A stretch of 64,000 nt of DNA from contig NZ_LMPD01000002.1 in the NCBI RefSeq assembly GCF_001424305.1, positions 109,531 through 173,530 of the forward strand, written 5' to 3'. Source of the stretch: Pedobacter sp. Leaf176 (lineage in GTDB: Bacteria > Bacteroidota > Bacteroidia > Sphingobacteriales > Sphingobacteriaceae). Of the stretch, positions 3,494 to 58,667 are shown one piece after another. The notes beneath the pieces were generated by a model that saw nothing but the letters and a program-made list of their open reading frames with translations, was not told the origin of the DNA and ran no database searches. The position numbers were made by a program, and so were the translations under genes. How positions within the stretch are numbered: the stretch's first letter is position 1; every line of letters begins with the position of its first letter.

Positions 3494-5083
3494 TTAATGT
3501 CCGTTAAAGAAAATATAAAGTATGACCATGACAATGGCCAATGCACCAAAGGATATCCACACCCTTCGACTTGGCTTTTCGATATTTGCCTTATGTGATT
3601 CATTTACGATGTAAACAGATGGTGAACGATCTGCAAGAGAAATAACAATCGACAAAATCATCAGCAAGGCAAAAATCAGGAAGGACAAAACCAGATAATG
3701 TGGCCAGAATGTATATTCAGACGATGGCAAGATCCACAGGTAACAAACGCCTATACCTAAACTTATGATTGACCCAATTGAAAGTGTGAAATTAACAGCT
3801 TTTCTAGTGGTTCTTTTCCAAAATACCGTTGATAAAAACACGACAGACAATGGTGGAGCAATGAAACCTAAAACGGCCTGAAAAACATCGAACAATTTCA
3901 AGCCCTGAATATTATCTATTGCTAATGCAACCAGGATGGCGAAAACACAACCTGCAACAACCGTCAACCTGCCGGTTTTGATAATTTCTTTTGTCGTTGC
4001 ATTGGGGTTAATTTTTTTCACATACACATCCATGGTGAAAACAGTACTTAAAGAATTAAGGCAAGATCCGATCGTACCCACCAGCACTGCAATTAATACC
4101 ACGATTACCAGGCCGTTCATTCCAGGAGGAAACAAATTGGTAACCATCGTCATGTATGCCATATCTGCGTTGCCCAGATTGGGATATAAGACGTAACACA
4201 AAATCCCGGTCACAATGAAAAGTGGCAAAGAGAGTATCTTAAGCCATCCAATAAAACTGACGCCCAACTGCCCCTGTTCTAAATTCTTGGCTCCAAGCAC
4301 CGATTGAACCATCGATTGATCGGTGCAGAAGAAAGCTACAGCAGAAACCGGATAACCCAGCAGAATGGCATACCACGGATATTGCGGATCGCTTCCAGGC
4401 TGAACGAGGTTCCAGAAGTTTTTTGGTGTTTTTTGATATAGTGCACTTATTCCTCCAACCTTTTCCAGGCCTAAATAGGTAAGTGCGAATGAAACGCAGA
4501 TCAGTAAAATCATTTGAAAAACGTTGACTTTAGCGATAGCTTTAAGTCCGCCGAAAAATGCGAACAGGCCAGCAAAAGCCACTAAAACGGTAACCGATTG
4601 CCACATCGGAACGCCCAAGATCTGCCTCACCAAAACACCACCTGCAAACAAACCCAATGATAGCCATGAAATTAAAATTTTAATCAGGGCATACCACGCA
4701 AGTATATTTTGTGTTGAATCGCCGTAACGGTTGCCCATAAATTCGGGCATGGTACTCACTTTAGCCGCCAGATATTTTGGGGCAAATACAATGGCAAGCA
4801 AGAATAAGAAGATAAAGGCATACCACTCGAAATTAACCGCCACAATGCCGGTAGAATAACCAATACTTGCAAACGCAACCAACATGGATGGACCAACATT
4901 CGTTCCCCACATATTGAAACCAATGCTCGACCAATTAAGTGATTTGTTGGCCAGGAACAGGTTTTCATCTTCGTTTTTCTTCTTCGAGAAACTTGCCCTG
5001 TACCCGATAATAATTAAAATTACGAGGTAAGCGGCGACGATAAAGTAATCTAAATTGGTTAAACGTTCTACAATATTTCCCAT
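3494..5083 (-). CDS. Sodium:solute symporter (SSS family)
   Basis: This 529-residue integral membrane protein has about 13-14 hydrophobic segments. It has the family start (LDYFIVAAYLVILIIIGY, then a LANKSLNWSSIGFNMWGTNVG loop) and the conserved core GTIGSCLNSLSTVFTMDVY. SSS proteins of this SGLT-like branch import sugars with sodium through the inner membrane. It lies between a GH78 enzyme and a Gfo/Idh/MocA oxidoreductase, so its cargo is probably a monosaccharide released in the periplasm, perhaps L-rhamnose or an oxidised derivative (inference). A second SSS gene is at 42440-44008. Confidence 0.88.
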   Translation of the reverse strand: MGNIVERLTNLDYFIVAAYLVILIIIGYRASFSKKKNEDENLFLANKSLNWSSIGFNMWGTNVGPSMLVAFASIGYSTGIVAVNFEWYAFIFLFLLAIVFAPKYLAAKVSTMPEFMGNRYGDSTQNILAWYALIKILISWLSLGLFAGGVLVRQILGVPMWQSVTVLVAFAGLFAFFGGLKAIAKVNVFQMILLICVSFALTYLGLEKVGGISALYQKTPKNFWNLVQPGSDPQYPWYAILLGYPVSAVAFFCTDQSMVQSVLGAKNLEQGQLGVSFIGWLKILSLPLFIVTGILCYVLYPNLGNADMAYMTMVTNLFPPGMNGLVIVVLIAVLVGTIGSCLNSLSTVFTMDVYVKKINPNATTKEIIKTGRLTVVAGCVFAILVALAIDNIQGLKLFDVFQAVLGFIAPPLSVVFLSTVFWKRTTRKAVNFTLSIGSIISLGIGVCYLWILPSSEYTFWPHYLVLSFLIFALLMILSIVISLADRSPSVYIVNESHKANIEKPSRRVWISFGALAIVMVILYIFFNGH

Positions 5084-5301: not shown

Positions 5302-6387
5302 CTACAAGCCAATCGATTCTCTTGTCATATTGTTAGCTTTTAAGATTTCATCAATCTTAACAGGCAAACCAATTTCCATGGATTTATCCATCGCCTGCAA
5401 TAAGGCAACAGTTCCAATTCCCTCTTTTAAATCCGGATAGGCTGTGAATTTGTTATTAATACTGTCTGCAAAATAATCGAGATAATTCTGATATTCGCCT
5501 GCATGATGACTTTGCCCCTCGAAACGGAAATAATGCTTCAATGTAGCATCACCCCAGGTAATGATTTTTTCTTCACCGGTTTTGGTGGTGACAGAATAGC
5601 GTAATTCGTGGTAATCGGCCTGGCTTGCTCCTTCTGTTCCGCGGAGAATGCAACTCATTCCACTATCGCGACTTGCCGGTTGTGTAGGCCCAGTATATGC
5701 ACCGCTTACCCGTGCAATACGGCCATCTTTTGCCTTGAATATAAAATGCATGGTATCAACATTTCTCAATCCGGCTTTAAGGCCGTTGCTGCTCAACATG
5801 CCATAACCCATTACTTCTTCAATATCGGGCATATACCAGCGAATAAAATCAACCGGATGACTTAAGCCGCCGTATAACCATTTAAACGATTGTTTTAACG
5901 ACCAACCTTTTTCCAAAAACCAACGGTGATCGGCATGGTAATGACTTTCGATGGTGATTAGTTCTCCGATTAATCCTTTATCAAAATCCTTTTTCTGACG
6001 CATTGCAGGTTCGAAAAAACGAGAACTTTGTCCGACAAAAATTTTTCTTCTTGATTTTTTAGCTAATTCTAACAGCTCATTAGCCTGAGAAAGATCATCA
6101 ATAAAAGGCTTTGTGCACACCACATGTTTTCCATGTTGCAAAGCCAGCTTGATGTGTTCAAAATGCAAATGATCTGGTGTGTAAATTGCGATCATATCGA
6201 TTTTATCGCTTGTTAACATATCCTCGTAATTGGTAGTCCAATTTTGAAAATCAAACTCCAATGAGCGTTCCTCGCAAAGCTTTTTATTCGCATCGCAAAT
6301 TTGAATGAGCTTAAATTTTTTGCTCGCTAATGATGCAGAAATTGTACTTCTGCCCTCTCCTAAACCTAAAATCCCTAATCTTAACAT
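5302..6387 (-). CDS. Gfo/Idh/MocA-family oxidoreductase
   Basis: 361 residues without a signal peptide, so cytosolic. The N-terminal Rossmann fold begins LRLGILGLGEGRSTISA. The usual EKP motif is present as CTKPF (about residue 115). The C-terminal alpha/beta domain includes HPVDFIRWYMPDIEEVMGYG. Family members oxidise or reduce sugars, sugar acids or inositols using NAD(P). The neighbours (sugar symporter on one side, beta-helix/mutarotase and sugar isomerase-like TIM barrel on the other) suggest it processes an imported pectin sugar. Substrate is unknown. Confidence 0.83.
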   Translation of the reverse strand: MLRLGILGLGEGRSTISASLASKKFKLIQICDANKKLCEERSLEFDFQNWTTNYEDMLTSDKIDMIAIYTPDHLHFEHIKLALQHGKHVVCTKPFIDDLSQANELLELAKKSRRKIFVGQSSRFFEPAMRQKKDFDKGLIGELITIESHYHADHRWFLEKGWSLKQSFKWLYGGLSHPVDFIRWYMPDIEEVMGYGMLSSNGLKAGLRNVDTMHFIFKAKDGRIARVSGAYTGPTQPASRDSGMSCILRGTEGASQADYHELRYSVTTKTGEEKIITWGDATLKHYFRFEGQSHHAGEYQNYLDYFADSINNKFTAYPDLKEGIGTVALLQAMDKSMEIGLPVKIDEILKANNMTRESIGL

Positions 6388-6462: not shown

Positions 6463-8967
6463 CTATTCAATCGGTTTAAAAAATACCCAAACCTCCCCGG
6501 GTTTTGTTCCTGCTATACCTTCCTGGTATTTTTTCATAATGGTATTCCATTCCTCAACCTTCGGATTATTTAATGTCGTTTTCGGATTTAAATCTTCTAG
6601 TTTTTTGCCTTTGGGAATACTGATAATTAACATCAGTTGCCTACCATTTTTAAAAATTGCCAGGCGCTGAAACTCGGCATTGCAAAATCCTTTGGATATC
6701 TCCGGCCATTTTTCAAATTGCGTTTTATGGTAATCCAAATATTCTTTTTGCATCTTTTCATCCTCAACCAAACTGGCCGACAGCATCACGTTATCCCATT
6801 CGGCAACCGGTTTGTCCCCACAGCTTTTCTCTCTGTTAAAATCGTAAAAAATATCGTTGTAGAGCTTAATTTCCGCTGCATTTAAGCGTTTCAAAGTTTG
6901 CTGCAAACTTTCTACTTTTAAGCTTGACGTATGAATTACCAATCTGTTATTCCATTTATAGATAGCGCTAGTTAACAGGTTATTTTCTTGTGCAAAATTA
7001 TCCAAAGTTTGGTTTCCCGGTAACTGATCACTTTTAAATATCAATTCAAAAACAACTGTTTTATCTTCCGCCTGATTGATACCGCGATTTGAATAAGTGC
7101 CTTTCTCTTTAAGCAGATACCTGAAGGGCAACTCTAAACCTGCATTTTGTTTGATGTTCTCGGCAACCTTAGGCCCATTGTTTTCCCATACATTACCCGG
7201 ACCGTTCGCATTTTGAAGATATTTTTCGGTCGGCGTCCAGTTGTTTTTAATGGTAAAATCAGAAGAACCCTCATCCGTATACAAATAAAACCAGTGATCA
7301 GGAAGATGAGCAAAAGGTGCCTTGTAAATACTATCGACTACATTTTCGGTAATGAAAGATTCGGGTTGAGCAGAGAGTGTGTAAATCCCTGCAACATCAT
7401 ACATGTGTTTGCCATAGTGATGAATTTTGTTTGCGCTGATGGTGTTATTCTTCATCGCATTTTGCATTTTAGTCCAGCCCCAGCCCATGCTGATCCCTGA
7501 ATAGGAGACATCACTAATCTCATTATGGAGAATTTTAATGCCTTTCACATAACCTGCACCAATGCCAACAGCACCCCAATCCTCATTGGTAACATCCGTA
7601 ATCAAATTATTTTCTATCCTTTCATTTGTTGAAATCTCCCGTTTATCTTTAGGATTATAAGGCAAATGAACTTCTGTTGCTTCATCAGAAAACGTGCCCA
7701 CTAAGATCGCTGAGCCGCCAATATCTTTAAACAGATTGCCTCGAATTAAATTATCTGAGGTTCCTTTCTTGAAGTCTAAACCGGTAGAGGCAAGATGTTG
7801 GAAACGGCATTTTTCGAAGCTGATCTGATTGGCAAAATTTACCTCAACAGCGGCTGCCGGCCTACCAACCCAAGCCTGATTTTCCAAACTTGGCTTATCT
7901 GGAGTTCCGGGTGTTGCAAGCTTATAAGCATCGAGCATATACATCCCTGCCTGGTGCGGAACGTGGCCTTCCATAGATGGCCTTAACCAGGTAGTGTGTT
8001 CAAAAGAAATGCCTTCAAAACGTACAAATGAAACCGGATGATCGATTGTTCCTTCGATTTTCAGCAGGTTTTCTATTGCAGGAGCAATCACCTCTGCCCT
8101 TTGCATATTTTCTGATGCCTTTGGCCAATAATAAATTTTATGGTTTTTCAGGTCTTCGAACCATTCGCCTGGCTCATCTAAAAACTGGATGGCATTGGAT
8201 AAATAGAATGCAGAGTTTCCTGTTTTTTCAGAAATCCAGGGTGCTGGCCAGGGGTGTTCGGATTGAATTCTACTTTCAGGCTGCATGAAAGAAAGCTCTG
8301 CAGCATTACCGATTACTTTAACCGATTTTACCCGAAGATTAGCGATTGCCCACCATTGATGTATTAACATTTCCATCCCGGCAAGTTTGCTTAAATCTGT
8401 GTTTGGCTGAAGCGGTATTCTACAGGTTTGGTTTTTTTTATCCCAGGATAAAATTCTACCCATGGCCTCTCCATTATAGTTTTTTGCCCGGATCGCCTTA
8501 GTTCCATTTACCCAAAGCTGGCGAAATAGCAAATCGCTGACACCATGGTTAGGAAGATCAGCAGCCCATATTTTCTCCAGAGACTTTTTTGGTAATCCTG
8601 GAACCGCTCCATTGACCTTTTTCCAACCCTCGATTTTAACCCCACCACTTAAAACAACTTTTTCAGTGGATAAAATCTCTGTTGGGCTATCTTTAGTTCC
8701 AGCGTCCTCGGGGCGAAGAACGAGGGGCTCATGTAATTGATAAATGCCTGCACCAACCAAAATTCTTATTCCATCTTTCGTTGACGGATCTTTTAAACGC
8801 CTTAATTCACGGGCTTTCCTTATGGCTGCATGAAGTGTTGCAAGAGGTTGTTCCTTATTTCCATTGTTAGTATCAGCACCATTTTTTGCAACATAAATTT
8901 CCACTGCAGCAACTTGAAAGTGCAGAAAAATAAATATCAATAAAAAGCATATCCTAATTTGTTTCAT
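6463..8967 (-). CDS. GH141-like beta-helix enzyme fused to L-rhamnose/L-fucose mutarotase domain
   Basis: 834 residues, signal peptide ending near residue 21. The N-terminal part has the GH141-type opening (IYVAKNGADTNNG, then PLATLHAAIRKAREL, and VLRPEDAGTKDSP) and a long right-handed parallel beta-helix to about residue 635. GH141 includes the RG-II alpha-L-fucosidase of Bacteroides thetaiotaomicron and a xylanase. Residues about 739-834 look like a RhaM/DUF718 mutarotase: YLDYHKTQFEKWPEI with the Tyr-xxx-His pair at 743/747, then EEWNTIMKKYQ and PGEVWVFF. Residues about 637-738 look like a second, degenerate copy of the same fold. The fusion suggests cleavage and anomer interconversion of a 6-deoxysugar in one exported protein. 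GH141 assignment is likely but unproven; the mutarotase domain is clear. Confidence 0.68.
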   Translation of the reverse strand: MKQIRICFLLIFIFLHFQVAAVEIYVAKNGADTNNGNKEQPLATLHAAIRKARELRRLKDPSTKDGIRILVGAGIYQLHEPLVLRPEDAGTKDSPTEILSTEKVVLSGGVKIEGWKKVNGAVPGLPKKSLEKIWAADLPNHGVSDLLFRQLWVNGTKAIRAKNYNGEAMGRILSWDKKNQTCRIPLQPNTDLSKLAGMEMLIHQWWAIANLRVKSVKVIGNAAELSFMQPESRIQSEHPWPAPWISEKTGNSAFYLSNAIQFLDEPGEWFEDLKNHKIYYWPKASENMQRAEVIAPAIENLLKIEGTIDHPVSFVRFEGISFEHTTWLRPSMEGHVPHQAGMYMLDAYKLATPGTPDKPSLENQAWVGRPAAAVEVNFANQISFEKCRFQHLASTGLDFKKGTSDNLIRGNLFKDIGGSAILVGTFSDEATEVHLPYNPKDKREISTNERIENNLITDVTNEDWGAVGIGAGYVKGIKILHNEISDVSYSGISMGWGWTKMQNAMKNNTISANKIHHYGKHMYDVAGIYTLSAQPESFITENVVDSIYKAPFAHLPDHWFYLYTDEGSSDFTIKNNWTPTEKYLQNANGPGNVWENNGPKVAENIKQNAGLELPFRYLLKEKGTYSNRGINQAEDKTVVFELIFKSDQLPGNQTLDNFAQENNLLTSAIYKWNNRLVIHTSSLKVESLQQTLKRLNAAEIKLYNDIFYDFNREKSCGDKPVAEWDNVMLSASLVEDEKMQKEYLDYHKTQFEKWPEISKGFCNAEFQRLAIFKNGRQLMLIISIPKGKKLEDLNPKTTLNNPKVEEWNTIMKKYQEGIAGTKPGEVWVFFKPIE

Positions 8968-8970
8968 AAA

Positions 8971-9867
8971 TTATTTCGCTTGAAAAACGGACTTAAGATA
9001 AGTTGTATTGGCACTAAAATTATACTTCACATTTGTGGGTTGGCTTGCATCTCTACTTCTTTCAACAACCAGCCATCCGCTCCAACCCATATCATCCAGC
9101 GTTGCCCTTACCTCAGGTAAATTAATCTTCGAATCGTTTTGTAACCAAACTCCATCATCATTTGTAGCGTGAATTTGTATGATATTTTTTCTGCCCAATG
9201 TTCTCAATTCCTGCTGTAAATCTCTTCCATTTTTAATCGGATTAGAAAAGTTGAAGTAACTTTTGATGTGTTTGCACCCAATATCTTTGAGTAACTTGAG
9301 TTCTCCTTTGGCATCAAGAGCTGTTTCAATGCCGATCACAATACCCGCTTTTGCAGCCATCTTTCCGGCAACTTTTAGTCTTTTTACGATAGGTTCACGC
9401 AGTTCAGGGTTTTTAACAAGGTCGCCCTGGACTCCCAGTGGTAAGAAAACCACTTTTACGTTCATCGCCTTTGCTGTGTCCAAACAATCTTGAATCATTT
9501 TGTGATAAGTTGGACGTGTAGCGAAGGATTGTGCATAAAAACCCGTCATTGCTAAAGAACAAATTTCCAGATTCAATTCTTTCGCTTGATCAAGGTACTC
9601 CTGACGCACTTTCGGGTCGGCCAATTTGTTATCAAAGGTCTCTCTATTTCCCAAACCGCCCATATCGATTTCAAGTCCATCTGCACCCAGCTCTTTGGCA
9701 AGCGGCAAGGCACTAATTTTCTGACGTTTCAAAATCATTAAATCAATTACGGCAACCTTGTATCGATCCTTTTTTTCAAAGGCAAACAGCAGTTGATTTG
9801 GGATCATCAAAGCGCCGGCTAGCAAAGCAGTGTTATTAATAAAAGTTCGCCTGTTTTGATGTTGCAT
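8971..9867 (-). CDS. Exported sugar isomerase/epimerase-like TIM-barrel protein
   Basis: The chosen ATG at 9867 gives 298 residues starting MQHQNRRTFINNTALLAGAL, a twin-arginine-like or Sec leader; an in-frame ATG at 9915 adds 16 charged residues before the leader and is unlikely. The body is the AP-endonuclease-2/xylose-isomerase-like TIM barrel (Pfam AP_endonuc_2): ELGADGLEIDMGGLG, GIVIGIETALD, IIQIHATNDDGVW, GWSGWLVVERSRD. Such proteins isomerise or epimerise sugars using a metal bound by Glu/Asp/His. It lies 3 bp upstream of the GH141-like gene. Gfo/Idh/MocA genes are often paired with this family. Substrate is unknown. Confidence 0.78.
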   Translation of the reverse strand: MQHQNRRTFINNTALLAGALMIPNQLLFAFEKKDRYKVAVIDLMILKRQKISALPLAKELGADGLEIDMGGLGNRETFDNKLADPKVRQEYLDQAKELNLEICSLAMTGFYAQSFATRPTYHKMIQDCLDTAKAMNVKVVFLPLGVQGDLVKNPELREPIVKRLKVAGKMAAKAGIVIGIETALDAKGELKLLKDIGCKHIKSYFNFSNPIKNGRDLQQELRTLGRKNIIQIHATNDDGVWLQNDSKINLPEVRATLDDMGWSGWLVVERSRDASQPTNVKYNFSANTTYLKSVFQAK

Positions 9868-9924
9868 ATTTAATTTATTGTTTAATGATTCTTTGTATTT
9901 CAGTTTAAGCATCAACTATGACCG

Positions 9925-10023: not shown

Positions 10024-11403
10024 TTAATTGCTAAATGGAAATAATCTTTCCAGATTCTCAAATCCTATCACCGCATTTTTGGGTAACTTTTCCCCTTTAT
10101 CTCCAAAAACATAAAGGGCATTTTCTTTTTCGATGGTTACTTCACTTTCGTCATATTTTCCTGCTTTATCTTTTACTAAACTGCCATTTAGTTTGAAGTT
10201 TTTAATCAGAAAATCGTAGAGCGCAATACGTTTATTTATCCCAAAATCGTGTTTCTCTGTAGGAAGATGAACATTCTCCACATTACTGCTCACGCCATAA
10301 TATCCATACATTTTTTGAAGGTAAGGGAAATCATGTTCTGGTGTGTGGGCCGTCCAATCACTACCGTCCGAAACTAAAAGTTGTGGTCGTGGTGCTGCCA
10401 TTGCGGCCAATTCTACATTGTCCGTACCACCACCGCATTGATGAATAGGCATTCCACTTTCGCAAGGACAACCACCGTAAAAATAGGATGACATCGCCAC
10501 CACCGGTGCACTCAGTTTAATTCGATCGTCCATTGCAGTCATTAAGATGGAATGACTTCCAGCTCCTGAACCACCACTAATTCCAATTCTGTCGGTGTCG
10601 GTTTCTTTAAGCGAAGAGAAATAATCTAAAATTCTTATCCCCCCCAAAGTTTGTACTGTTTGGGCTAAACTCCGGCGGTGATCTTCGTACTTAAACTGCA
10701 GCATGGATTCGCCCCACGCAAATAAATCATAGCTGAAAGCCATTGCTCCCATCCTGGCAATCGTGGCGCAACGGAGCTGACAATCGGCTCTGTAGCGCTG
10801 TTTTTCCCAATGCCCATCAGGACTGAGAATTACAGGAATTTTGCCTTTAACATTTAGCGGTTTATAAAGCGATCCATTGATCCAAACACCCGGCAAGATT
10901 TCCAAAGCAATATTTTCTACCGAATAACCGTTAAAAACCCGTTTCGTCGTAGTGATTGGTTTTGAATTCAGTTTTGCCGGCAAAGGTGACAGTAACAAAG
11001 CTTTGTAAAGCTCGGGCTTTATCTCCGCCTTCCGTTTTTCCCAGCTGCTTTTATCGGTATATTTTGTAGCCAGGGTATCCAGATAGGCCCAGCCATCTTT
11101 CGGCTCCCATCGGTAGTATTCGTATTCTTTTAACTTGTAAACGCCGGGTTTTTCCTTGTTTACCTTCATATCTAAAGGAGCAAGAACATTTTTTAGTGTT
11201 TCATCTACATCGGCACGAAAACGCCATTCAGCGTAGTTGAGCCATTTGTCTTTCACCTGCGGTTCTGAATATTTAATCTGAACATTGAACCGCGTCTGGA
11301 TTTCTTTTAAAACGTCGACTAATGGTTTTTTGTAAAGATTGTCGGTATTCTGGGTTTGGGCGGATAACCTTGTAAACAACGATAAAAAAACAACAATTCC
11401 CAT
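10024..11403 (-). CDS. Alpha/beta-hydrolase carbohydrate esterase with STN-like N-terminal domain
   Basis: 459 residues from the ATG at 11403 (MGIVVFLSLFTRLSAQ leader). The in-frame ATG at 11505 overlaps the upstream stop as ATGA but adds 34 residues translated from a REP-like element, so I prefer 11403. Residues about 22-91 (PLVDVLKEIQTRFNVQIKYS, then ETLKNVLAPLDMKV) resemble the STN/DUF4974 fold found in TonB-dependent receptors. The rest is an alpha/beta hydrolase of the acetyl-xylan-esterase-like group: GISGGSGAG with Ser276, APRPQLLVSDGSDW, and the catalytic-type His385 in EKHDFG. It should remove acetyl or methyl esters from pectic sugars; which ester is not readable. Confidence 0.74.
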   Translation of the reverse strand: MGIVVFLSLFTRLSAQTQNTDNLYKKPLVDVLKEIQTRFNVQIKYSEPQVKDKWLNYAEWRFRADVDETLKNVLAPLDMKVNKEKPGVYKLKEYEYYRWEPKDGWAYLDTLATKYTDKSSWEKRKAEIKPELYKALLLSPLPAKLNSKPITTTKRVFNGYSVENIALEILPGVWINGSLYKPLNVKGKIPVILSPDGHWEKQRYRADCQLRCATIARMGAMAFSYDLFAWGESMLQFKYEDHRRSLAQTVQTLGGIRILDYFSSLKETDTDRIGISGGSGAGSHSILMTAMDDRIKLSAPVVAMSSYFYGGCPCESGMPIHQCGGGTDNVELAAMAAPRPQLLVSDGSDWTAHTPEHDFPYLQKMYGYYGVSSNVENVHLPTEKHDFGINKRIALYDFLIKNFKLNGSLVKDKAGKYDESEVTIEKENALYVFGDKGEKLPKNAVIGFENLERLFPFSN

Positions 11404-11442
11404 TATTCTCGGCAATAGTAGAAAAGACTGTGAAACTAATTT

Positions 11443-11475
11443 AAAAGATTTCTCTACTACGGTCGAAATGACGGT
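11443..11475. repeat. REP-like element inside the esterase leader
   Basis: The sequence AAAAGATTTCTCTACTACGG followed by TCGAAATGACGG belongs to the same repeat type as 22717-22827. Read in frame it encodes VISTVVEKSF, the false N-terminal extension of the esterase ORF. Confidence 0.6.
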
Positions 11476-11501
11476 TGGAATAAATGCAAAACTGCCTTCT
11501 C

Positions 11502-23962: not shown

Positions 23963-25363
23963 CTACACCTTATCCAAAACTAAAACCCAATCATTACCAT
24001 TTGCAGGTTCTCCTGGTGGATTGAATTCTTTTACTCCCTTATTCTCAAACTCACCAATTGTGGTAAATTTTCCGGTTCGTGGATCGTACCATGAAGCCTT
24101 CACCTCATCTCCATCTATTTTGCCAAGCTGTACGCTAAAAGTTTTACCCGTGTAGATGTAAAACATTGCGTACTCCTCGCCCCTTGTGGCTAAAACTTTG
24201 TCGTATTTTTCACCATTGCTTCCTGCAATCATCGTTTGATCGGGTATCCGATCAAAATAAGAACGAGATAACATTAAGTTTTTCAGAAATTTCATTTGCT
24301 GCGCTCCCGGAGCGTTTATCGCCGTAATCCATTGATCTTTCGGACCGTACGCAGGTTTCAAATCGGTTTTTTTGTACATCTGCATCACCGAATTATGGCC
24401 ATAGGTGTAGCCGAAAGCTCCGGCAAAAACCGACCAATAGCCATATCTTCTTACATCAGCATCGTTCCAGCGTGGCTGGGTAACATCGTGCAATCCTTGC
24501 GGAATATCCTCGTACGAGGGTTCACCATCAATGGTAGGCTTTGCTGGCTTCAGTTTATAATCGCTTTCAATGTATTTCCAGTTATCTTCCCCGTAATGTA
24601 ATTTTTCCTTTGCTGAGGTATCTTGCTCATAACGGCGGTGACCAGATTGAATCATATCAAAATCGTTCCATTTTGCATCGTGAAACCATGCAGAAGAAGC
24701 GGTTCTTCCCCTTGGATGGAAAGTGATCAAATGATTTGGATCATTTGCTCTTAACGTTTCGCCAATCGCATTCCAAACTTTCAATCCGTCAGTTCCCTTT
24801 ATGTCACCACCATTTAACCAGATAATATTCCACTTTTCGCGGTATCTTTTTGCGAGGAATTCAGCATACTTTTTCGCCTGATCCTCATTTACTTTTTTCT
24901 CTTTCACATTTGTTCCCCAAACCGGAACAAGCGCCATGTAAAGTCCTTTTTCAGCAGCTTTGTCAACCACATAATCAATGTGATCCCAATAATCGTAAGC
25001 AGAAGAATCCCTGTAATCGTTTTGGTCGGTTAACACCGGTTTGGAAACATCTTTGTTCACCAGAGCAGAATCACCATAAATATTTTTAGCGGCCACATCA
25101 TGCAAAACCATTACCTGAATTACATTGAAACCCTTTTGTTTTCTATCTTCCAGGTAAGTATTGGTTTCTTCGCGATTTAAGCGGCTAAATAACAACCAAC
25201 CCGTATCGCCTAGCCAGAAAAAGGGTTTTCCATCTCCTGTAGAAAAATATCTACCATTTTCAGAAATTAATAAACTTTTATCACCAAAATGTGGCTTATC
25301 CTTGCATCCAAATGTTATGATTGATACTAAGAAAACCAGAAATAGTTTAAATTTTAAATTCAT
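23963..25363 (-). CDS. GH140 apiosidase-like enzyme (DUF4038), lipoprotein
   Basis: 466 residues, lipobox TFGC with Cys20. The DUF4038 TIM barrel opens with GRYFSTGDGKPFFWLGDTGW and is followed by a C-terminal beta domain (putative collagen-binding type; ASWYDPRTGKFT). Candidate catalytic residues are Asp187 in WLNGGD and Glu281 in TIDGEPSYED. From memory these correspond to the Asp187/Glu284 pair reported for the B. thetaiotaomicron RG-II apiosidase BT1012. The enzyme should cleave the apiose-galacturonate link that anchors RG-II chains A and B. It lies 3 bp below the 25367-28519 gene. This is one of the strongest markers of RG-II use here. Confidence 0.85.
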   Translation of the reverse strand: MNLKFKLFLVFLVSIITFGCKDKPHFGDKSLLISENGRYFSTGDGKPFFWLGDTGWLLFSRLNREETNTYLEDRKQKGFNVIQVMVLHDVAAKNIYGDSALVNKDVSKPVLTDQNDYRDSSAYDYWDHIDYVVDKAAEKGLYMALVPVWGTNVKEKKVNEDQAKKYAEFLAKRYREKWNIIWLNGGDIKGTDGLKVWNAIGETLRANDPNHLITFHPRGRTASSAWFHDAKWNDFDMIQSGHRRYEQDTSAKEKLHYGEDNWKYIESDYKLKPAKPTIDGEPSYEDIPQGLHDVTQPRWNDADVRRYGYWSVFAGAFGYTYGHNSVMQMYKKTDLKPAYGPKDQWITAINAPGAQQMKFLKNLMLSRSYFDRIPDQTMIAGSNGEKYDKVLATRGEEYAMFYIYTGKTFSVQLGKIDGDEVKASWYDPRTGKFTTIGEFENKGVKEFNPPGEPANGNDWVLVLDKV

Positions 25364-44086: not shown

Positions 44087-44109
44087 TATATTGTATCATA
44101 TTATCCTAT
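44087..44109. promoter_or_regulatory. Candidate AraC operator, copy 2
   Basis: On the minus strand the bases begin ATAGGATAATATGATA, similar to 40432-40447. The site straddles the GH2 stop codon and precedes the symporter start by about 80 bp. Confidence 0.28.
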
Positions 44110-47100
44110 TGAACATCCAAAGCGTCGATATAAAGGCCTTTACTTTCAGTAGCTATAATGCGCAACTTGTAACTTCCTGCATTTATCATGCTCCCGGTGC
44201 TGGTATTATAATAATTCCATTTGCCTTGTTTTGTAGGTGCGAATTCGGCTTTTTCGATTTTCATAACCGTTCCATCTGCAGATAAAAATTCCAGCTTTGC
44301 TTTCAAAGATTCATTAAAAGGATTGTGATATTTAATGGTGAGCGAGTAAGTATCAGCCACACCAACTCCCATTGAAAACTCTAAAATTCCTCCCTCTGGA
44401 GATTTAAAAACAACCCTTTGTTTGCCAATAAAATCTTCTTTTACGATTTCCTTTCCTTTTAAAACAGCGTCGACTGCCTTATAGCTGGTCAGAGTTTTTA
44501 GATCGTAAGCTGGCTCTAAATTACTTGGGGGAACAAAGGCAACAACTGAAGCATCACCTTTTATTTCAATGCCAGAACCTTTCGAAAAACGTTTTCTGAA
44601 TATTTTGAATACCTCTCTGTTACTATTTTCGATGATGGTCTTAGTATCTTCAAAGCCTGAGTATACGATTGAATCGGCATTTTTTAAACCGACGAAAACA
44701 TCGGCTTGCTGATTCATTTTAAAACGAAAATCAGAATGCTTCTCTGACATTTTTATCCATTCTACACCAAATAAATTTGCTGGCAGATACATAAACTCAG
44801 CTTCATTTTTCAGGTACTGTTTATCGCCGATATCCAGCCAACTTGATAAAATATGATCATTGTTAGAAAGAAGTTCAACAAGCGAAGTAACTTTTGGAGC
44901 AACTTTAATTGTTTTATTCAGACTTGCTACGGCAATAGCCGAGATAAGCGCTTGCCCCGCCTTGACTTGTGGAAAAGACACCGTTAACTTCCCTCCTTTA
45001 ACGAAAACTTTAACCGTTTTTTTTAGCAGTGAATTTGTTCCGGCTTCTCTCCAGATGTCTAAATCTTTTAATACCGTTTTATTATTAATGGCTACATCAA
45101 AAAGACGCATTTTCTCTGAATTAATTCCTCCACCAACACCTAACCAAGGTTCTATGAAATACATTTCAATAAGGTATTCTCCATCTTCTGGAATATTGAA
45201 ACTGAAAGTCAACTGATCTCTCCCATATCTAAAAGTTTGAAAAAGTTTCCAATCTTGAGTTCCTTTTATTGGTGAAAACGTTCTTCTTTGACTTGCAAAA
45301 AAATCTGGAATACCTGGAAAGGCTGCCGTCCAGGATGATGAGCCGTAGTTTGTATTTTTAGTAACTTGCTGGTCTTTTAACCAGAGATTTCCGTGCACAT
45401 CTTTATATTCTGAACCGCCACAATTTAAACGATACAGGTAATTATAGTTTTCGACAGGTTTTAAGATTTTAGTATCCGTAACCAGCTTACTAAAATTGGG
45501 CGATTTGGGCAGGCTGTTTAAAACGATGTAATCTTTTGCCACCGCTTTTCCATCAACATAACCAACTGCGTAAAGTAGATTATATTGAACATCAGGTTTA
45601 TTCCACTGAAAATGCGTACCGACTTTTCCACGGCTTATTTTTCCTAAAGATTTATTATCAACATCATTAAACAACTCCACTTCATCACAATTTGAATACA
45701 CAACTATGCTGTCTTTTACACCCGGCTTCGACCATCGATTTGGCCAGGTGTGCGAAACGATGTAAGCCATCGGATCGGTTTGCTTTGGTGCATAATTCGA
45801 CCTAAACAGGTAATAAATGTCGGTTGGCTCTTCCCAGGGTGTAAACATCCCTTTGTAATTCACCGGGCCTATTCTATCTAAATCCCGAAGACCTTCTCCA
45901 CCCTGAACCCGACCCGGATTATCATGCGAGCTATAAAGCCAAAAAAAATGACCTGCTGTTTTATCTTTTACAGAATCGGCCAGCCTGACTTTTGTTTCCA
46001 TAAGGCTCGCCATGCCGTTTTCGGTATATCCCTTTTCGCTTGCGTTTAAGCTGTGTAAATCAATTGTCCGCCAGGCGCCATACTCTCCTATTAAAAGTTG
46101 TCTTTGCAAATCGTCCCCATAGGTTAAAGGATTGCCTCCATAGGTTCCTGTCCAGTTTTGCGGTACATCCCAATCCGTTCCTTTACCACCATTACAAGTG
46201 GTTACCTTTCGTTGAGATGACGCCGTTGGATCTAATTTTCTTATCAATTCGGTACATTCTTTGGCGAAATCTTCGGGAAGTGTGCTCTCATTTTCTAATC
46301 CCCACAAAACTACTGCCGGACTATTTCTTCGTTCCCTTACCCAGTCGGTTAAAAGCGTTTTGAAATTTTTTCTGAATTCAGGTGTATCGTACCAGATGTG
46401 TGCAGCCATTTGGGTCCAGCATAAAACACCAAGTTTATCCCAATAATCGGAATACAGTAAATTATGAGGTTGATGCGCATCGCGAAAGGCATTAAAGCCC
46501 GCCGATTTTATTTGCGTCACACGCGATTTTATTTGTTCAGGGCTAAAAGCATGACTTTGCCCAATCAAATGTTCGTATTCGGCAATTCCATTGATAAAAA
46601 CCGGCTTTCCATTCAAAAGAAATACTTTTTGATTTGCCTTATCTCCAATCGGCCAACTTACCCAACGAATTCCATAAGGGGTTTTTACTTCGTCAATTAC
46701 TTTTCTATCTTCTAAAATGGTTGTTTTCAAAGTGTAGAGATATGGATTTTCTAACGACCAGAGTTTAGGATTTTGGATTGCATCGGTCTTCATAGAAAAT
46801 GTAATTTCCTTACCCGGAGCAAGGTTTTCTGAATGTTTAACTTCTTTTACAACCTTCCCGTCATTATCTAAAAGCTGATTTAAAATCACCAGTGATTTTT
46901 GCTTGTTGCTATAATTCTTTAAAGTGTTTTCGATGTTTATAATGGCAGATTTCTCAGAGATTTTATCATCATTCCAGATATGGATTCCGAACGGCTGAAT
47001 TCTACTTTCGTTAGTTACGATTAAGTGAACGGGACGAAAAATACCCATCGGCTGAGAACCTTCAGAAAAACCTCGTTCTGTAGAACAACCGCCATCCACC

Positions 47101-47588
47101 CATGGTAAATCCTGAATATTTGCAGGGTGGTCCGCCCTCACAGCTAAAATATTACGCTGGTTATTAAGCTTGATAAACGGCGTTATATCTAAAGTAAAAG
47201 TAGTTCTTCCACCAGCGTGGTAGCCTACTTTCTTGCCATTAAGCCAAATGGTTGCATACGAACCAACACCTTCGAAATAAAGGAAGAATCGCTTACCTTG
47301 TTTAATTTCATTGCTTTTAAAAATTTTACGGTACCAGGCGTAGCCATGTTTATTGCCATGTAGCTTTCTTTGATAACCTTCATACTGGTCCCAATTATGC
47401 GGAACGTTTACGCTTTTCCAACCATTGATTTCATAACTGGAGGCCTGGAATCCATCATATGCTCTGATGTTTTTCTCATCTGCAACAGTTTCCCAATCGG
47501 AGTTTAAGGGGATATCTTTTCTGACGGAAACTTGTGCGTGTACGCGAATCGCTAAAAAACAAAAAATTAAAAGAAAACACCTCATCAT
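44106..47588 (-). CDS. GH2 beta-glycosidase with malectin-like and C-terminal binding domains
   Basis: 1160 residues, signal peptide ending VHAQ (about residue 19). The GH2 core spans about 20-600: acid/base Glu434 in WGLENEST and nucleophile Glu502 in LIGEYGAW. A malectin-like domain follows (about 720-880; LNCGGSEYKDVHGN, DGEYLIEMYFIEPW). The end (about 1030-1160) resembles a CBM6/35-type module (YSLTIKYHNPFNESLKA). It should hydrolyse a beta-linked galactose, glucuronate or similar residue. Its start overlaps the GH95 stop as ATGA, indicating translational coupling. Confidence 0.86.
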   Translation of the reverse strand: MMRCFLLIFCFLAIRVHAQVSVRKDIPLNSDWETVADEKNIRAYDGFQASSYEINGWKSVNVPHNWDQYEGYQRKLHGNKHGYAWYRKIFKSNEIKQGKRFFLYFEGVGSYATIWLNGKKVGYHAGGRTTFTLDITPFIKLNNQRNILAVRADHPANIQDLPWVDGGCSTERGFSEGSQPMGIFRPVHLIVTNESRIQPFGIHIWNDDKISEKSAIINIENTLKNYSNKQKSLVILNQLLDNDGKVVKEVKHSENLAPGKEITFSMKTDAIQNPKLWSLENPYLYTLKTTILEDRKVIDEVKTPYGIRWVSWPIGDKANQKVFLLNGKPVFINGIAEYEHLIGQSHAFSPEQIKSRVTQIKSAGFNAFRDAHQPHNLLYSDYWDKLGVLCWTQMAAHIWYDTPEFRKNFKTLLTDWVRERRNSPAVVLWGLENESTLPEDFAKECTELIRKLDPTASSQRKVTTCNGGKGTDWDVPQNWTGTYGGNPLTYGDDLQRQLLIGEYGAWRTIDLHSLNASEKGYTENGMASLMETKVRLADSVKDKTAGHFFWLYSSHDNPGRVQGGEGLRDLDRIGPVNYKGMFTPWEEPTDIYYLFRSNYAPKQTDPMAYIVSHTWPNRWSKPGVKDSIVVYSNCDEVELFNDVDNKSLGKISRGKVGTHFQWNKPDVQYNLLYAVGYVDGKAVAKDYIVLNSLPKSPNFSKLVTDTKILKPVENYNYLYRLNCGGSEYKDVHGNLWLKDQQVTKNTNYGSSSWTAAFPGIPDFFASQRRTFSPIKGTQDWKLFQTFRYGRDQLTFSFNIPEDGEYLIEMYFIEPWLGVGGGINSEKMRLFDVAINNKTVLKDLDIWREAGTNSLLKKTVKVFVKGGKLTVSFPQVKAGQALISAIAVASLNKTIKVAPKVTSLVELLSNNDHILSSWLDIGDKQYLKNEAEFMYLPANLFGVEWIKMSEKHSDFRFKMNQQADVFVGLKNADSIVYSGFEDTKTIIENSNREVFKIFRKRFSKGSGIEIKGDASVVAFVPPSNLEPAYDLKTLTSYKAVDAVLKGKEIVKEDFIGKQRVVFKSPEGGILEFSMGVGVADTYSLTIKYHNPFNESLKAKLEFLSADGTVMKIEKAEFAPTKQGKWNYYNTSTGSMINAGSYKLRIIATESKGLYIDALDVQ

Positions 47589-52042: not shown

Positions 52043-53593
52043 TTATCTCAATTTAACTTTTAAGGGCTTCAAATCCTTGCCTTTGTAAATCTCTTTTCCA
52101 TCAGCATAAATAAAAAATCCTTTGCCCTTTTTATACTTATCGCCGGTTTTATCCCAAATAAGTGTTATTGTTTTGCCATGATAAGAAACATTATCCAGTG
52201 TAAACCAATCCCATTTTCCTGGCGGGATAAGCGGAAAAACCTCCAAAACATTATCCATTCTAGGCTTTAATCCGATTAGATCGCTGATAACCAAATCGCA
52301 AAAAGTTGAATGGTTGTAGAAGCTGCTTCTGGGGTTATCACCTTTCAGCCATACGCCATTTTTTTCATCCTGATATTCACCAATATATGGTTTTCCGTTT
52401 TTTTGATGCGATAAAGCATATTGGTGAAGTTCATCATAGAAAACCCCTGCGGTCATTTTACCATGATTTTTGTAATTTACCAATAAGTTTGAAAGACCTT
52501 TAAGTGTTTGCGAACTTGCAAAAGGCCATAAAGCGCCATCCCATTCGCAGCTGTGGCCTGTTCCACGCGTTCTAAACGTTGGGTTTCTACGCTCCGCTGT
52601 AGTTAATCCCCAGGGCGCTTTAAATCCTGCTGTATCTAACAATTGGTCCCAGGCTTTAGCGTAGATACTTTTATCATCAGGCAGATTGAAATCCCATGGT
52701 GTAAAGCCAATTGCTTCGCGAACATTTGCCAGGCCTTTTTTTGCAAGTTTAGTTTCAAAAAAAGAGGATTTTGAATTCCACAGACTATCCTGAACCAGTT
52801 TTTTTAGTTCTGCGGCTTTTTGCTGATACTTTACTTTTAAAGCTTGTTCTTTTAATAAATCTGAAATGCTCACTAACGCTTTGGCATTACCGTACATATA
52901 ACTATTTATGGTCGGCCGACTGTTCTGGTCCTTTCTCGAACCACTAATTGATTCTTCCATTCCATCTTTAACATCGTGCTGCCAGAACAAACCGCTTTTC
53001 AGCCGTCGTTCTTTCTCCCATTTGTCATAATCGGCATCAAGCGCCGGCAAAATATCTTTCAAAAAACCTGCGTCGGGTTTTACCATATAATTTGCCAAAA
53101 CGGCATCATCAACCCAGCTGCTAAACTGATGAAAACGTTGTTTAGTTTGACCTACATCAGCCTTGTATAACCAAAAGTTAATGTATTCTTTGAGGTATTC
53201 GTTATTTTTCAACCAACGTCCTTCGTAAATATGATGACCTAAAGCACAACTAATGGAATTGTATTTCCCGGCATGTTTTACGGGCTCGATAAATTCTGTA
53301 AAAATAAAACCCTCCGGAGTTTTAACCAGATGCTTACGAAACGACCACCAACGGTAATAATAGTTTTTTTCAATTACCTCATCCGGACAGTCAAGTAATG
53401 GAACATTCTCAGATAACCAATGGTACGATTGCACATTCGGAACAAAATTTTTGACCGCTTCAGTGTCTATTGAATTAAAATATTCAACGTAATTTTTCAG
53501 TTTCGCTTTAAGCGGAACCGGTTTTTGCTGTGCAAAGCCTGTCGCAGTAACCAACAAACAAATTGCAGTTATAAATTTTTTCTTACTCACCAT
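52043..53593 (-). CDS. (alpha/alpha)6-barrel glycosidase, possibly GH142-like
   Basis: 516 residues, signal peptide ending FAQQ (about residue 22). Alpha-helical toroid features include YYYRWWSFRKHL, SCALGHHIYEGRWL, SYMYGNAKALVSIS, GHSCEWDGALWPFAS and a C-terminal beta-sandwich with PLIPPGKWDWFTLDNVSYHG. This is the MGH1/GH142-type arrangement. GH142 is a beta-L-arabinofuranosidase of RG-II, fused to GH143 in B. thetaiotaomicron; here it stands alone. Family placement is tentative; glycosidase function is likely. Its start overlaps the stop of the 53593-56346 gene by one base. Confidence 0.62.
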   Translation of the reverse strand: MVSKKKFITAICLLVTATGFAQQKPVPLKAKLKNYVEYFNSIDTEAVKNFVPNVQSYHWLSENVPLLDCPDEVIEKNYYYRWWSFRKHLVKTPEGFIFTEFIEPVKHAGKYNSISCALGHHIYEGRWLKNNEYLKEYINFWLYKADVGQTKQRFHQFSSWVDDAVLANYMVKPDAGFLKDILPALDADYDKWEKERRLKSGLFWQHDVKDGMEESISGSRKDQNSRPTINSYMYGNAKALVSISDLLKEQALKVKYQQKAAELKKLVQDSLWNSKSSFFETKLAKKGLANVREAIGFTPWDFNLPDDKSIYAKAWDQLLDTAGFKAPWGLTTAERRNPTFRTRGTGHSCEWDGALWPFASSQTLKGLSNLLVNYKNHGKMTAGVFYDELHQYALSHQKNGKPYIGEYQDEKNGVWLKGDNPRSSFYNHSTFCDLVISDLIGLKPRMDNVLEVFPLIPPGKWDWFTLDNVSYHGKTITLIWDKTGDKYKKGKGFFIYADGKEIYKGKDLKPLKVKLR

Positions 53594-56346
53594 TATTCAA
53601 ATAACCAATCAATATCTTTCCCACGACCATCTAATCCCGCATTAAAAATTCTCAATTCCTGCTTATCATCAATAAATCCCAATACCAAACAGGCGCCCTT
53701 TCCCAATGTTAGCGTGTGCGATCCTTCGGCGAATGAATAAGCATGGATATTTACCGGAGCAAAACCATTTACAACCAATGCATTCGAAATTTTTATTTCA
53801 GATTGACCGTAGTTATTTGCGCTGGCATCTATCTCCAATTGCGGAGGCAGTAACGTTTTATTATCTTTTTGATTAAAATAGCCAACCAAAAGTTTAACAG
53901 GAATTTTCGTACTGAACTTGATTTCCGTTCCATTTTTAATTTGCTTCTCTCTTGATAACTTTAGTCCTTTCAAGCCGATTAATTGCTCAGCTACTTCTTT
54001 AATCTGAGAGGTGGTATCAACAAATACCCGAACGTTTTTATCGACAATGTAGCTTTCTATAGCAGTAGATAATATTTTTACATCGGCATTTTTATAAGGA
54101 ATAACCTTTTCGATAGTGGTTTTTTTGATGGATTTCAACGAGTCTATGCTATGCTTAAAATGATTAAGTTCATTCGTAAACACTGGCATCATTTCTTTCC
54201 AGTGGATAAATGTTTTATCAACACCACGCATCGGAATTTTACGCTGCTTGGTTTGCATACTGTTGGCGTACAGGTATTCGTTTTCTGTTAATTTGGTTAG
54301 CTTACTGTAGTAATCCAGACTTTTTTGCAAAAAAGGCAGGGCCTTTTCCAAATCAGAAACATCGTTGGAGTATTTAAATCTTAAAATCCAAAGTGCCGCT
54401 TTTACCTTTTCTGCGTAAGAATTCGCCAATGCATCGTAGCAATACATGTCGTTTTTTAACCTTCTAAATTCTGCAGTATCTTTCTTTACCGATGCTGAAG
54501 CCTCATTAATTGATGCAATTGCTTTTTTTCCATGGTCGATAACCTCTTTTGCAATTTGCAGAGGCGTTTCACCGATGTGGCCTTGTTTTTTCCACTCCTT
54601 TTCAGCGTAATCGATTATCATTTCTCCTTCCGGAGCTTCGGATTCATACATCAAGGTAAACAAGCCATAACGAAACGGATTAATCAGTTGTGTCATTAGC
54701 ATACCTAAAGTAAGCGTTTGCCTGTTACCATCTGTAATTCCATACCTACGCAAAAGCTTTGGTGCAATTTCTCCTGATTCCTCGTAAGCGTTTAAAATTG
54801 CTTTTCCTGCTGACAAGTCAGTTCCATACTTGCTGGCCAATTCGTTCCCCCAATAATTAATTTCACCTGCCCTGTCACGTTGGCTATTCCAGGAATAACG
54901 CGCCCATTCTTTGTACCAAATCCAGTCCCTGTCGATTTGCAATTCACGGTTTCTAGTTTTGTCAGCCGTATAAGGCCAGTCCCAATAACTCGCCTGCGGA
55001 TATAAATGCAGGCCTTTTGCACCGTAAATTTTATTCATCGCCTGCACCGATTTTTGAATAAAATCTGCCGAACCATACCGAAAAGGTTCGAGGTTTGCCA
55101 GGATATGCACGTTAGAAATGTTAACCGTACCTATTGTAGCCAGTTTTCTATTCAGTTCGGCCCATGCGCCACGCGGTTCATAAGTTGTGAGTGCCTCGCC
55201 ATTAAATTTATTCTCAGTGTATAGATTTTTATAAAGTGGTAACGCAGCTTTCATAACTGCAGGCGCATCCGTATCGTGAGCCCGCAAAACAATTGGCGGT
55301 TCATTTTTTATGCCTGCAGCTTTTAAGCCATCTTTAACACCCGGGATAATTGTTTTCGTAAACCATTCTATATCATCTTGTCCAACGCCTTCCATAGCTT
55401 CACCAAGTGCAACCATCAAACCAACGTTTGGATATTTTTCTACAAAGGCAGCTATCGATTTTCGTGTATAATCAGCTATTATGGGGATAATTGGGCGGTT
55501 TCTGTCCTGGGTTTTCAGTCCGTGTTTATCTGCGAAAGGTTTTGGAATGATGATATTGTAAAACATTTGTATCACCCAAATTCCCCTTTTATCTGCTTCA
55601 GCAGTCAAAAACCTAAAAATCTCTTCATTCTTTTTAAAAGTGGCATCATCAACCTCAACCGCATAAGGATAATCTTTCAATTTAATCAGCGATGAGAATG
55701 GGTGCCCATTCCACAAGTAAAGAGAATTGAAACGGTTCTCAACCATCATATCCAGGTATTTGATCCAAAGTTGTTTATCATACAGCCATGGAAAACTTTC
55801 TGGTGTATAGGGATATTCATAAACATCATGACCAGGCAAATAATCGGTTTTTTGTAAACCTATGCAAGTTCCCCTCATGACCATTTCCGGACGGTCAGCT
55901 AATTCGATTTTATCAGGAATTTTTCCTTTTGCTTTTATTTGTTCAATTAATTCCAAGCAAGCATACAAAGTGCCGGAGGCATCAAAGCCGATAACAAAAA
56001 GTTTATCATTTGTGTAAGAAATCACAAATCCTTCTTTACCTGAATTTTGAACTTGTTTTTTAACAGACTCCGGAAGGCTTTTCGCAATAGAATTATCCTG
56101 AAGCTGACCAATTATTATCGAACCCTTTTTAGCAGTGAATGGTAGCTTTGGATTCATTTTTTTTAATGAAGCCTGAAGGCCAAGCTTTTTTAAGGCTTTC
56201 AAAACCTTCTCCGTTCCAAAACCTACACGCGGGTTAGTAACAGCAGAAACAATAACAGTTTTTTCATCTTTAATTCCGCTCATCGACGCAACTGAGACAA
56301 ATGGAAAAATTAAAGTACAGAAAATAAAAATCAGATAGCTTTTCAT
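53593..56346 (-). CDS. GH138-like exo-alpha-D-galacturonidase
   Basis: 917 residues, signal peptide ending SVAS (about residue 21). An N-terminal GH20b/GH67N-like alpha/beta domain (GTLYACLELIEQI) leads into a TIM barrel (about 150-520). Candidate catalytic acids are Glu316 in VALGEAMEG and Glu384 in FNGEALTTYE. Their spacing of 68 is close to the Glu294/Glu361 pair I recall for a characterised GH138. A helical domain and a beta domain follow. GH138 removes galacturonic acid in RG-II chain A. It is the first gene of a unit running to the GH2 gene at 44106. Confidence 0.68.
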   Translation of the reverse strand: MKSYLIFIFCTLIFPFVSVASMSGIKDEKTVIVSAVTNPRVGFGTEKVLKALKKLGLQASLKKMNPKLPFTAKKGSIIIGQLQDNSIAKSLPESVKKQVQNSGKEGFVISYTNDKLFVIGFDASGTLYACLELIEQIKAKGKIPDKIELADRPEMVMRGTCIGLQKTDYLPGHDVYEYPYTPESFPWLYDKQLWIKYLDMMVENRFNSLYLWNGHPFSSLIKLKDYPYAVEVDDATFKKNEEIFRFLTAEADKRGIWVIQMFYNIIIPKPFADKHGLKTQDRNRPIIPIIADYTRKSIAAFVEKYPNVGLMVALGEAMEGVGQDDIEWFTKTIIPGVKDGLKAAGIKNEPPIVLRAHDTDAPAVMKAALPLYKNLYTENKFNGEALTTYEPRGAWAELNRKLATIGTVNISNVHILANLEPFRYGSADFIQKSVQAMNKIYGAKGLHLYPQASYWDWPYTADKTRNRELQIDRDWIWYKEWARYSWNSQRDRAGEINYWGNELASKYGTDLSAGKAILNAYEESGEIAPKLLRRYGITDGNRQTLTLGMLMTQLINPFRYGLFTLMYESEAPEGEMIIDYAEKEWKKQGHIGETPLQIAKEVIDHGKKAIASINEASASVKKDTAEFRRLKNDMYCYDALANSYAEKVKAALWILRFKYSNDVSDLEKALPFLQKSLDYYSKLTKLTENEYLYANSMQTKQRKIPMRGVDKTFIHWKEMMPVFTNELNHFKHSIDSLKSIKKTTIEKVIPYKNADVKILSTAIESYIVDKNVRVFVDTTSQIKEVAEQLIGLKGLKLSREKQIKNGTEIKFSTKIPVKLLVGYFNQKDNKTLLPPQLEIDASANNYGQSEIKISNALVVNGFAPVNIHAYSFAEGSHTLTLGKGACLVLGFIDDKQELRIFNAGLDGRGKDIDWLFE

Positions 56347-57446: not shown

Positions 57447-57471
57447 ATATAAAAACGATAAAAAATTTAAA

Positions 57472-58326: not shown

Positions 58327-58327
58327 A

Positions 58328-58657
58328 ATGAAAAGGCATTGCTTTACGCTTGATTTAATTGATGATGAAAAACTGATTAAAACTTACAAAAAGTTCCATG
58401 AATCTGTTTGGCCCGAAATTAAAGAAAGCATCACATCTGCCGGCGTAAAAGAATTAGAAATCTATCTTTTAGGTACGCGTTTATTCATGATCATGGACGT
58501 GGATGATTTCTTTTCCTTTGAAGCAAAAGCACAATCAGATTTGGAAAACGAAAAGGTTCAGGAGTGGGAAAAACTGATGTGGAACTACCAAAAAGCATTA
58601 CCGGGTGCAAAACCAGACGAGAAGTGGATGTTAATGGAAAATATTTTTAAACTCTAA
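58328..58657 (+). CDS. L-rhamnose/L-fucose mutarotase (RhaM/DUF718 type)
   Basis: 109 residues, a normal single-domain length. TYKKFHESVWPEI places the Tyr20-xxx-His24 active-site pair and Trp28; the end EKWMLMENIFKL matches the family close. It interconverts alpha and beta anomers of the deoxysugar before the first dehydrogenase. It starts one base after the upstream stop. Its sequence parallels the C-terminal domain of the exported 6463-8967 protein, so the locus has a cytosolic and a secreted version. Confidence 0.86.
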   Translation: MKRHCFTLDLIDDEKLIKTYKKFHESVWPEIKESITSAGVKELEIYLLGTRLFMIMDVDDFFSFEAKAQSDLENEKVQEWEKLMWNYQKALPGAKPDEKWMLMENIFKL

Positions 58658-58667
58658 ATACGTACTT

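Follow-up and report, generated by a model that had tools for sequence, protein, structure and literature searches.

A GH141 Glycosidase Module Joined to a RhaM-Family Didomain in Pedobacter and Its Co-occurrence with a Sodium/Sugar Symporter

A GH141–RhaM Fusion Gene in a Rhamnogalacturonan II Context

The window, by which we mean the whole 64,000-nucleotide stretch of Pedobacter sp. Leaf176 DNA analyzed here, contains an open reading frame (6463..8967, minus strand) that starts with ATG and encodes a protein of 834 amino acids with Pfam matches to GH141_M, Beta_helix, and rhaM. Its translation begins with a hydrophobic segment that we predict to be a signal peptide without a lipobox (residues 1–21; 8905..8967, minus strand; cleavage site placed by eye), and we predict export of the protein. 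A GH141 module follows (residues 22–619; 7111..8904, minus strand), and then a didomain composed of an N-half (residues 637–711; 6835..7059, minus strand) and a RhaM/FucM-like C-half (residues 724–834; 6466..6798, minus strand). An earlier note on this DNA had described an exported GH141-like enzyme with a mutarotase-family domain, and the profile searches that it proposed bear out this description: GH141_M matches residues 132–283 (E 3.1e-66) and rhaM (PF05336) matches residues 737–828 (E 2.8e-10, 40.8 bits against a curated cut-off of 23.4), which places a significant RhaM match within the region 640–834. The fused protein has no NCBIfam match at E 0.1, the YiiL rhamnose-mutarotase equivalog (TIGR02625 YiiL_rotase) included.

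Residues 18–619 match BT_1002 of Bacteroides thetaiotaomicron (PDB 5mqp) with an E of 5.5e-214 in a sequence search of PDB, and a model of the full-length fusion (mean pLDDT of 80, weak in the RhaM region) fits this structure with a TMt of 0.88; the fold-search matches listed for the model are GH141 and other beta-helix-type folds. Two aspartates of BT_1002 that are called critical in PMC10154630, D523 and D564, correspond in the PDB alignment to Asp524 (7396..7398, minus strand; chain number 528, an offset of 5) and Asp565 (7273..7275, minus strand; the same 5-residue offset in the chain), both of which are invariant in all 71 rows of our GH141 alignment (A2). The two proteins share the GH141 fold over this region, both catalytic aspartates, and an RG-II (rhamnogalacturonan II) locus; unlike the fusion, the 5mqp chain (624 amino acids) stops at the end of the match and has no mutarotase didomain. 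According to PMC10154630 and PMC7939467, BT_1002 releases the disaccharide 2-O-methyl-xylosyl-α-1,3-fucose (MeXyl-Fuc) from RG-II, and the latter source reports that B. thetaiotaomicron cleaves 21 of the 22 RG-II linkages, with 2-O-Me-Xyl-α1,3-Fuc as the exception and the disaccharide accumulating. The stereochemistry of GH141 is, by PMC10154630, not demonstrated. Given that the characterized homolog releases MeXyl-Fuc, we consider by analogy that the GH141 module of the window probably yields this disaccharide as well; a free 6-deoxy sugar, the product that the earlier note had in mind, is less likely.

The window also encodes an α-D-galacturonidase (53593..56346, minus strand; NF049878, 1550 bits, over the cut-off of 1300), a GH2 β-D-glucuronidase-like enzyme (44106..47588, minus strand; NF049877, 1433 bits, below the cut-off of 1800), an apiosidase-like enzyme (23963..25363, minus strand; PF13204, E 7e-119), a BT_1020-like protein, and a GH95 member, a gene content that fits a context of RG-II degradation. 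Also on the minus strand are an α/β-hydrolase-like protein with weak esterase matches (10024–11505) and two DUF3826 proteins (12696–13373 and 37973–38662), which look like separate proteins here, whereas PMC7939467 describes a methylesterase module and DUF3826 within one B. thetaiotaomicron protein, BT1017. Two neighboring minus-strand reading frames (28668–30299 and 30301–31956) lack a Pfam match and resemble PelZ pectate lyase weakly (137 and 129 bits, cut-off 840).

The gene directly upstream of the fusion, in the same direction, encodes a TIM-barrel protein with a TAT-like signal judged by eye (8971..9915, minus strand; PF01261). The next gene downstream encodes a Gfo/Idh/MocA oxidoreductase (5302..6387, minus strand; assigned by Pfam) in which we see no signal by eye, and beyond it lies a gene for an SGLT-type sodium/sugar symporter, here termed SSF1 (3494..5083, minus strand; PF00474), which matches SGLT1 (E 1.7e-57) and the sodium/glucose cotransporter 2xq2 (E 1.1e-53) in PDB. 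At a distance, the window contains the free cytosolic-type mutarotase that the earlier note had pointed out (58328..58657, plus strand), a genuine family member (PF05336, E 5.1e-30) with L-fucose mutarotase as its best PDB match (7byw/7byu, E 1.4e-4), L-rhamnose mutarotase as the next (6hhn, E 3.7e-4), and a score below threshold against TIGR02625 YiiL_rotase (30.9 bits, cut-off 99.6). Beside it are encoded a lactonase (241 bits to L-fuconolactonase, cut-off 400) and an FAA hydrolase for which the best-fitting model is a rhamnose-pathway model (376 bits to 2,4-didehydro-3-deoxy-L-rhamnonate hydrolase, cut-off 500). A second probably exported mutarotase of the window is a GalM-type aldose 1-epimerase with a lipobox-like N-terminus judged by eye (59499–60650, minus strand); exported enzymes of this type resemble the fusion in that a mutarotase family is probably located outside the cytosol but belong to another Pfam family, PF01263.

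The Two Halves of the Didomain

The C-half contains a presumed catalytic histidine, His747 (6727..6729, minus strand), which the earlier note had numbered correctly, and a presumed substrate-binding tyrosine, Tyr743 (6739..6741, minus strand), aligned with the RhaM histidine and tyrosine, respectively; in Escherichia coli RhaM, we take the catalytic histidine to be His22 and the nearby tyrosine to be Tyr18. Both residues, together with Q750 and W754, are kept in 80 of the 80 loci compared below, at positions outside the patterns used in the locus search. The active-site pattern that this note pointed out is present, with one departure from the usual spacing YxxxHxxxWPE: the stretch from His747 to Trp754 is three residues longer here. 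An hhalign comparison of the C-half with the free mutarotase of the window (probability 99.4, 32% identity, 101 columns) pairs Y743 and H747 with the tyrosine and histidine of the latter, an equivalence that depends on where the 3-residue insertion is placed. Three of 23 free RhaM-family proteins, chosen by similarity to the fusion didomain, have a 2-residue insertion at the same place.

Across the 77 of 80 loci with a close GH141, mean identity to the window is 75.7% for the C-half (74.5% once the residues selected for by the locus search are left out), 70.1% for the GH141 module, and 48.7% for the N-half, so that by this sequence measure the C-half is the most conserved part of the fusion protein. 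A fold search returns L-fucose mutarotase 7byu as the closest fold of the RhaM-type domain. A profile of the C-half scores the free mutarotase of the window at 54 bits and does not match the E. coli-type RhaM copy of the genome at E 1e-3, one such protein having been compared.

The structure prediction that the earlier note called for gives the N-half (taken as residues 637–738) a β-α-β-β-α-β fold with pLDDT mostly above 90; the AlphaFold model is ferredoxin-like and the segment has no catalytic pattern. The suggestion that this segment is a second, degenerate mutarotase copy agrees with the predicted fold and finds no counterpart in detectable sequence relation, as hhalign gives probabilities of 0.5 against the C-half and 12.6 against free RhaM; at the sequence level we therefore reject a true RhaM duplication, with which the fold alone agrees. 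Only the C-half would be catalytic, through His747 and Tyr743; the other half of the α+β barrel, which RhaM enzymes form as dimers, probably comes from the N-half.

Distribution of Fused and Separate Didomains

Region 620–834 has 740 homologs at E up to 0.01, and of the 120 that are listed, 118 (the protein of the window among them) carry PF21231 (GH141_M) together with PF05336, the other two being shorter pieces with Beta_helix and PF05336. A length-limited search for short proteins gave 550 matches, of which the 120 listed show PF05336 alone; some of these are fragments of fused proteins, and 92 of the 120 start with a membrane-type segment by a crude hydrophobicity count. We also searched genome contigs, in which 317 stretches encode a relative, and kept the best 80, a set rich in Pedobacter. 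Of these 80 loci, 62 have the didomain fused to GH141 and 18 have it as a separate protein. The separate gene adjoins that of GH141 in nine of the 18 split loci (from an overlap of 17 to a gap of 3 bp, most overlapping by one base) and lies within 2.4 kb of it in six, where the gap of about 2.3 kb holds a GH78-like gene; the remaining three split loci contain no GH141. Two of the latter genomes have a 51–57% GH141 elsewhere, and the third (that of locus L083) has GH141 matches of 28–36% only and no close GH141. Each of the 18 split didomains contains a hydrophobic, signal-like segment within its first 60 residues, and five also show a lipobox-like motif; in two, the segment starts near residue 48, which probably reflects the choice of start codon. 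Since the separate didomains start with a signal-like segment of their own, a place outside the cytoplasm is likely a selected property.

The fusion occurs in Pedobacter, Mucilaginibacter, Chitinophagaceae, Larkinella, Desertivirga, Arcticibacter, and Flavobacterium, and on this spread, together with the 740 homologs, we reject chance or an annotation artifact. A tree built by a quick method, with many weak forks, requires four changes between the fused and split states, of which the starred branches force only one. Among 395 genomes sampled evenly from the class, the whole didomain is present in eight (fused in seven, separate in one), which represent five genera and are not independent, and single RhaM domains only are listed for 25 more. 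GH141 (E up to 1e-60) is found in the eight didomain genomes and in three others. No fusion of RhaM to another glycosidase was seen in this sample: every listed PF05336 occurrence besides the eight didomain rows lies in a frame of at most 213 amino acids; a long fused PF05336 frame is seen with GH141 only.

Exported glycosidases often carry binding modules, and the didomain might accordingly be one that has lost mutarotation and serves to bind or position sugar for GH141 or for the symporter. The insertion in the active-site helix would suit such a module, as would the weak sequence link to characterized mutarotases (the best single-sequence PDB match of the C-half has an E of only 0.11, and profile A1 gives no PDB match up to an E of 10). 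We nevertheless consider this reading improbable, given the four residues kept in all 80 loci, the conservation of the C-half beyond that of the GH141 module itself and unlike that of the variable N-half, and the existence of the didomain as a separate protein, in one case in a genome that lacks a close GH141.

Conserved Linkage to a Symporter and an Oxidoreductase

The genes follow a conserved order: GH141, didomain, Gfo/Idh, symporter. A homolog of SSF1 is encoded within 3.5 kb downstream of the didomain in 74 of the 80 loci, which amounts to 74 of the 75 untruncated ones: five of the six loci without SSF1 have at most 1,723 bases of downstream sequence left, and in the sixth (L107) the fusion has neither SSF1 nor Gfo/Idh in the 10 kb downstream (9,988 bases). 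Within the sample of 395 genomes, SSF1 (E up to 1e-120, with up to three candidates per genome scored) is found in the same eight genomes as the didomain and in no other, and in the three genomes with GH141 alone, the 19 kb surrounding that gene encode neither such a symporter nor Gfo/Idh. The earlier note had proposed that mutarotation feeds an anomer-selective transporter; these data sustain the link to a transporter. The TIM-barrel protein has a homolog in 47 of the 62 fused and eight of the 18 split loci.

In 73 of the 80 loci, the didomain is followed within 400 bp by the start of a Gfo/Idh homolog, and the best PDB match of the oxidoreductase of the window is DgpA (63 bits, one of 15 of similar strength). 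These observations would accommodate a different reaction of the C-half on the methylated sugar, such as an isomerization or elimination carried out with Gfo/Idh and the TIM-barrel protein. This seems to us very improbable: the oxidoreductase, without a signal peptide by eye, would work in another compartment than the didomain, and clusters of two more distant relatives, G359 and L085, keep the didomain and SSF1 with no Gfo/Idh seen.

GH31 and B12-Dependent Proteins in Distant Relatives

In a second sample, 295 genomes from the order of G359, the didomain is present in four, G359 included. The SSF1 clusters of G359, G458, G608, and the L085 genome (a Paludibacter MAG) encode a GH31 α-xylosidase-like enzyme, which scores 480 (G359) and 508 bits (L085) against PRK10658 (cut-off 606), those of G458 and G608 being 67–68% identical to that of G359. 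All four clusters also encode a 354-amino-acid protein of no known family, whose comparison gave no support for a URO-D-type methyltransferase (hhalign 7.7; no Pfam match for the three scanned and no PDB match for the one searched). The GH31, 354-amino-acid protein, and SSF1 genes lie at L134:5133–12606, L158:8514–16327, L159:4888–15246, and L085:10632–15614. B12 proteins are found in three of the four: G359 has a corrinoid protein, a Met_synt_B12 activation protein, and an MtaA/CmuA-like methyltransferase, G458 has a Met_synt_B12 activation protein and a homocysteine methyltransferase, and G608 has a corrinoid and a Met_synt_B12 activation protein; in L085, a URO-D-family protein alone lies behind the symporter. 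Gfo/Idh is encoded in G458 and G608. GH141 is located inside the cluster in G359, G458, and G608 and on another contig in the L085 genome, and the didomain of G458 and G608 lies outside their GH141/SSF1 cluster. An SSF1 homolog is present in all six genomes queried (G458, G608, G670, and those of L083, L085, and L098).

G670 encodes a divergent didomain (L142:668–5867) next to a 29–32% GH141 (29% at this locus), a DHDPS protein, and a different symporter, its SSF1 being on a small contig; on this basis, the didomain may work with more than a single branch of GH141.

An α-xylosidase combined with methyl transfer fits 2-O-methyl-xylosyl-fucose, the BT_1002 product reported in PMC10154630, and we regard the GH31/B12 clusters as candidates for a pathway that O-demethylates methyl sugars of RG-II. 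The GH31 enzymes beside SSF1 lack a signal peptide as judged by eye. This suggests that a xyloside is imported and speaks against a simpler alternative, namely that free L-fucose (or L-rhamnose) is the sugar on which the didomain acts as a periplasmic mutarotase and that SSF1 imports the monosaccharide for the cytosolic pathway encoded at 56682–59507. That alternative draws on the L-fucose mutarotase 7byu as closest fold, on the C-half profile matching the free mutarotase and not the E. coli-type RhaM copy, and on the lactonase and FAA hydrolase encoded beside the free mutarotase. Against it, the BT_1002 product is a disaccharide and not fucose in both sources cited above, and many other enzymes could yield free fucose or rhamnose, yet the didomain tracks GH141 and SSF1. 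We judge uptake of the monosaccharide possible but unlikely.

A Possible Route for Import of MeXyl-Fuc

From the domains, residues, gene neighborhoods, and co-distribution observed, we infer a route in which export, mutarotation, substrate, transport direction, and every catabolic step would combine as follows. The GH141 module would release MeXyl-Fuc from RG-II as a single anomer with respect to its fucose end, the C-half of the didomain would interconvert the anomers of this end in the periplasm, and the SGLT-type symporter would take the favored anomer and so import the disaccharide. Inside the cell, Gfo/Idh may handle the sugar in Pedobacter-like bacteria, and a GH31 α-xylosidase together with B12-dependent methyl transfer may do so in some distant relatives. 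The Gfo/Idh branch is a guess, as the genome of the window has no GH31 of the α-xylosidase cluster type (the best match has 30% identity). Reducing sugars mutarotate without an enzyme; given this spontaneous reaction, the need for a mutarotase is uncertain. We put the core proposal, that the periplasmic didomain mutarotates the fucose end of GH141-released MeXyl-Fuc for import by the symporter, at about an even chance of being correct. The wider proposal, that GH141, the exported didomain, the symporter, and the cytosolic set constitute the missing route for MeXyl-Fuc, with the didomain as a periplasmic mutarotase acting on a disaccharide, is tentative, and we lean somewhat against its holding in full.

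FucM (7byu/7byw), RhaM (1x8d), RhaU (2qlw), and FA22100 (6hhn) are single domains with chains of 99–108 residues, whereas the RhaM-family domain described here stands apart by its probable export, by the degenerate half with which it is paired, by its 3-residue insertion, and by its association with a glycosidase, either as a fusion or in a shared locus. A mutarotase joined to an enzyme of the same pathway has a precedent in yeast Gal10, in which a GalM-type mutarotase domain is joined to a cytosolic epimerase; the present protein instead links a RhaM-type domain with a glycosidase that is probably exported. Neither the fusion nor a MeXyl-Fuc route is described in the literature searched, which consists mainly of openly accessible text. 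If the proposal is true, other Bacteroidota would deal by import with MeXyl-Fuc, the disaccharide that B. thetaiotaomicron leaves uncut according to PMC7939467, and an exported mutarotase would couple a glycosidase to a symporter. It would then become testable whether sugar uptake is limited by the exchange of anomers outside the cytosol.
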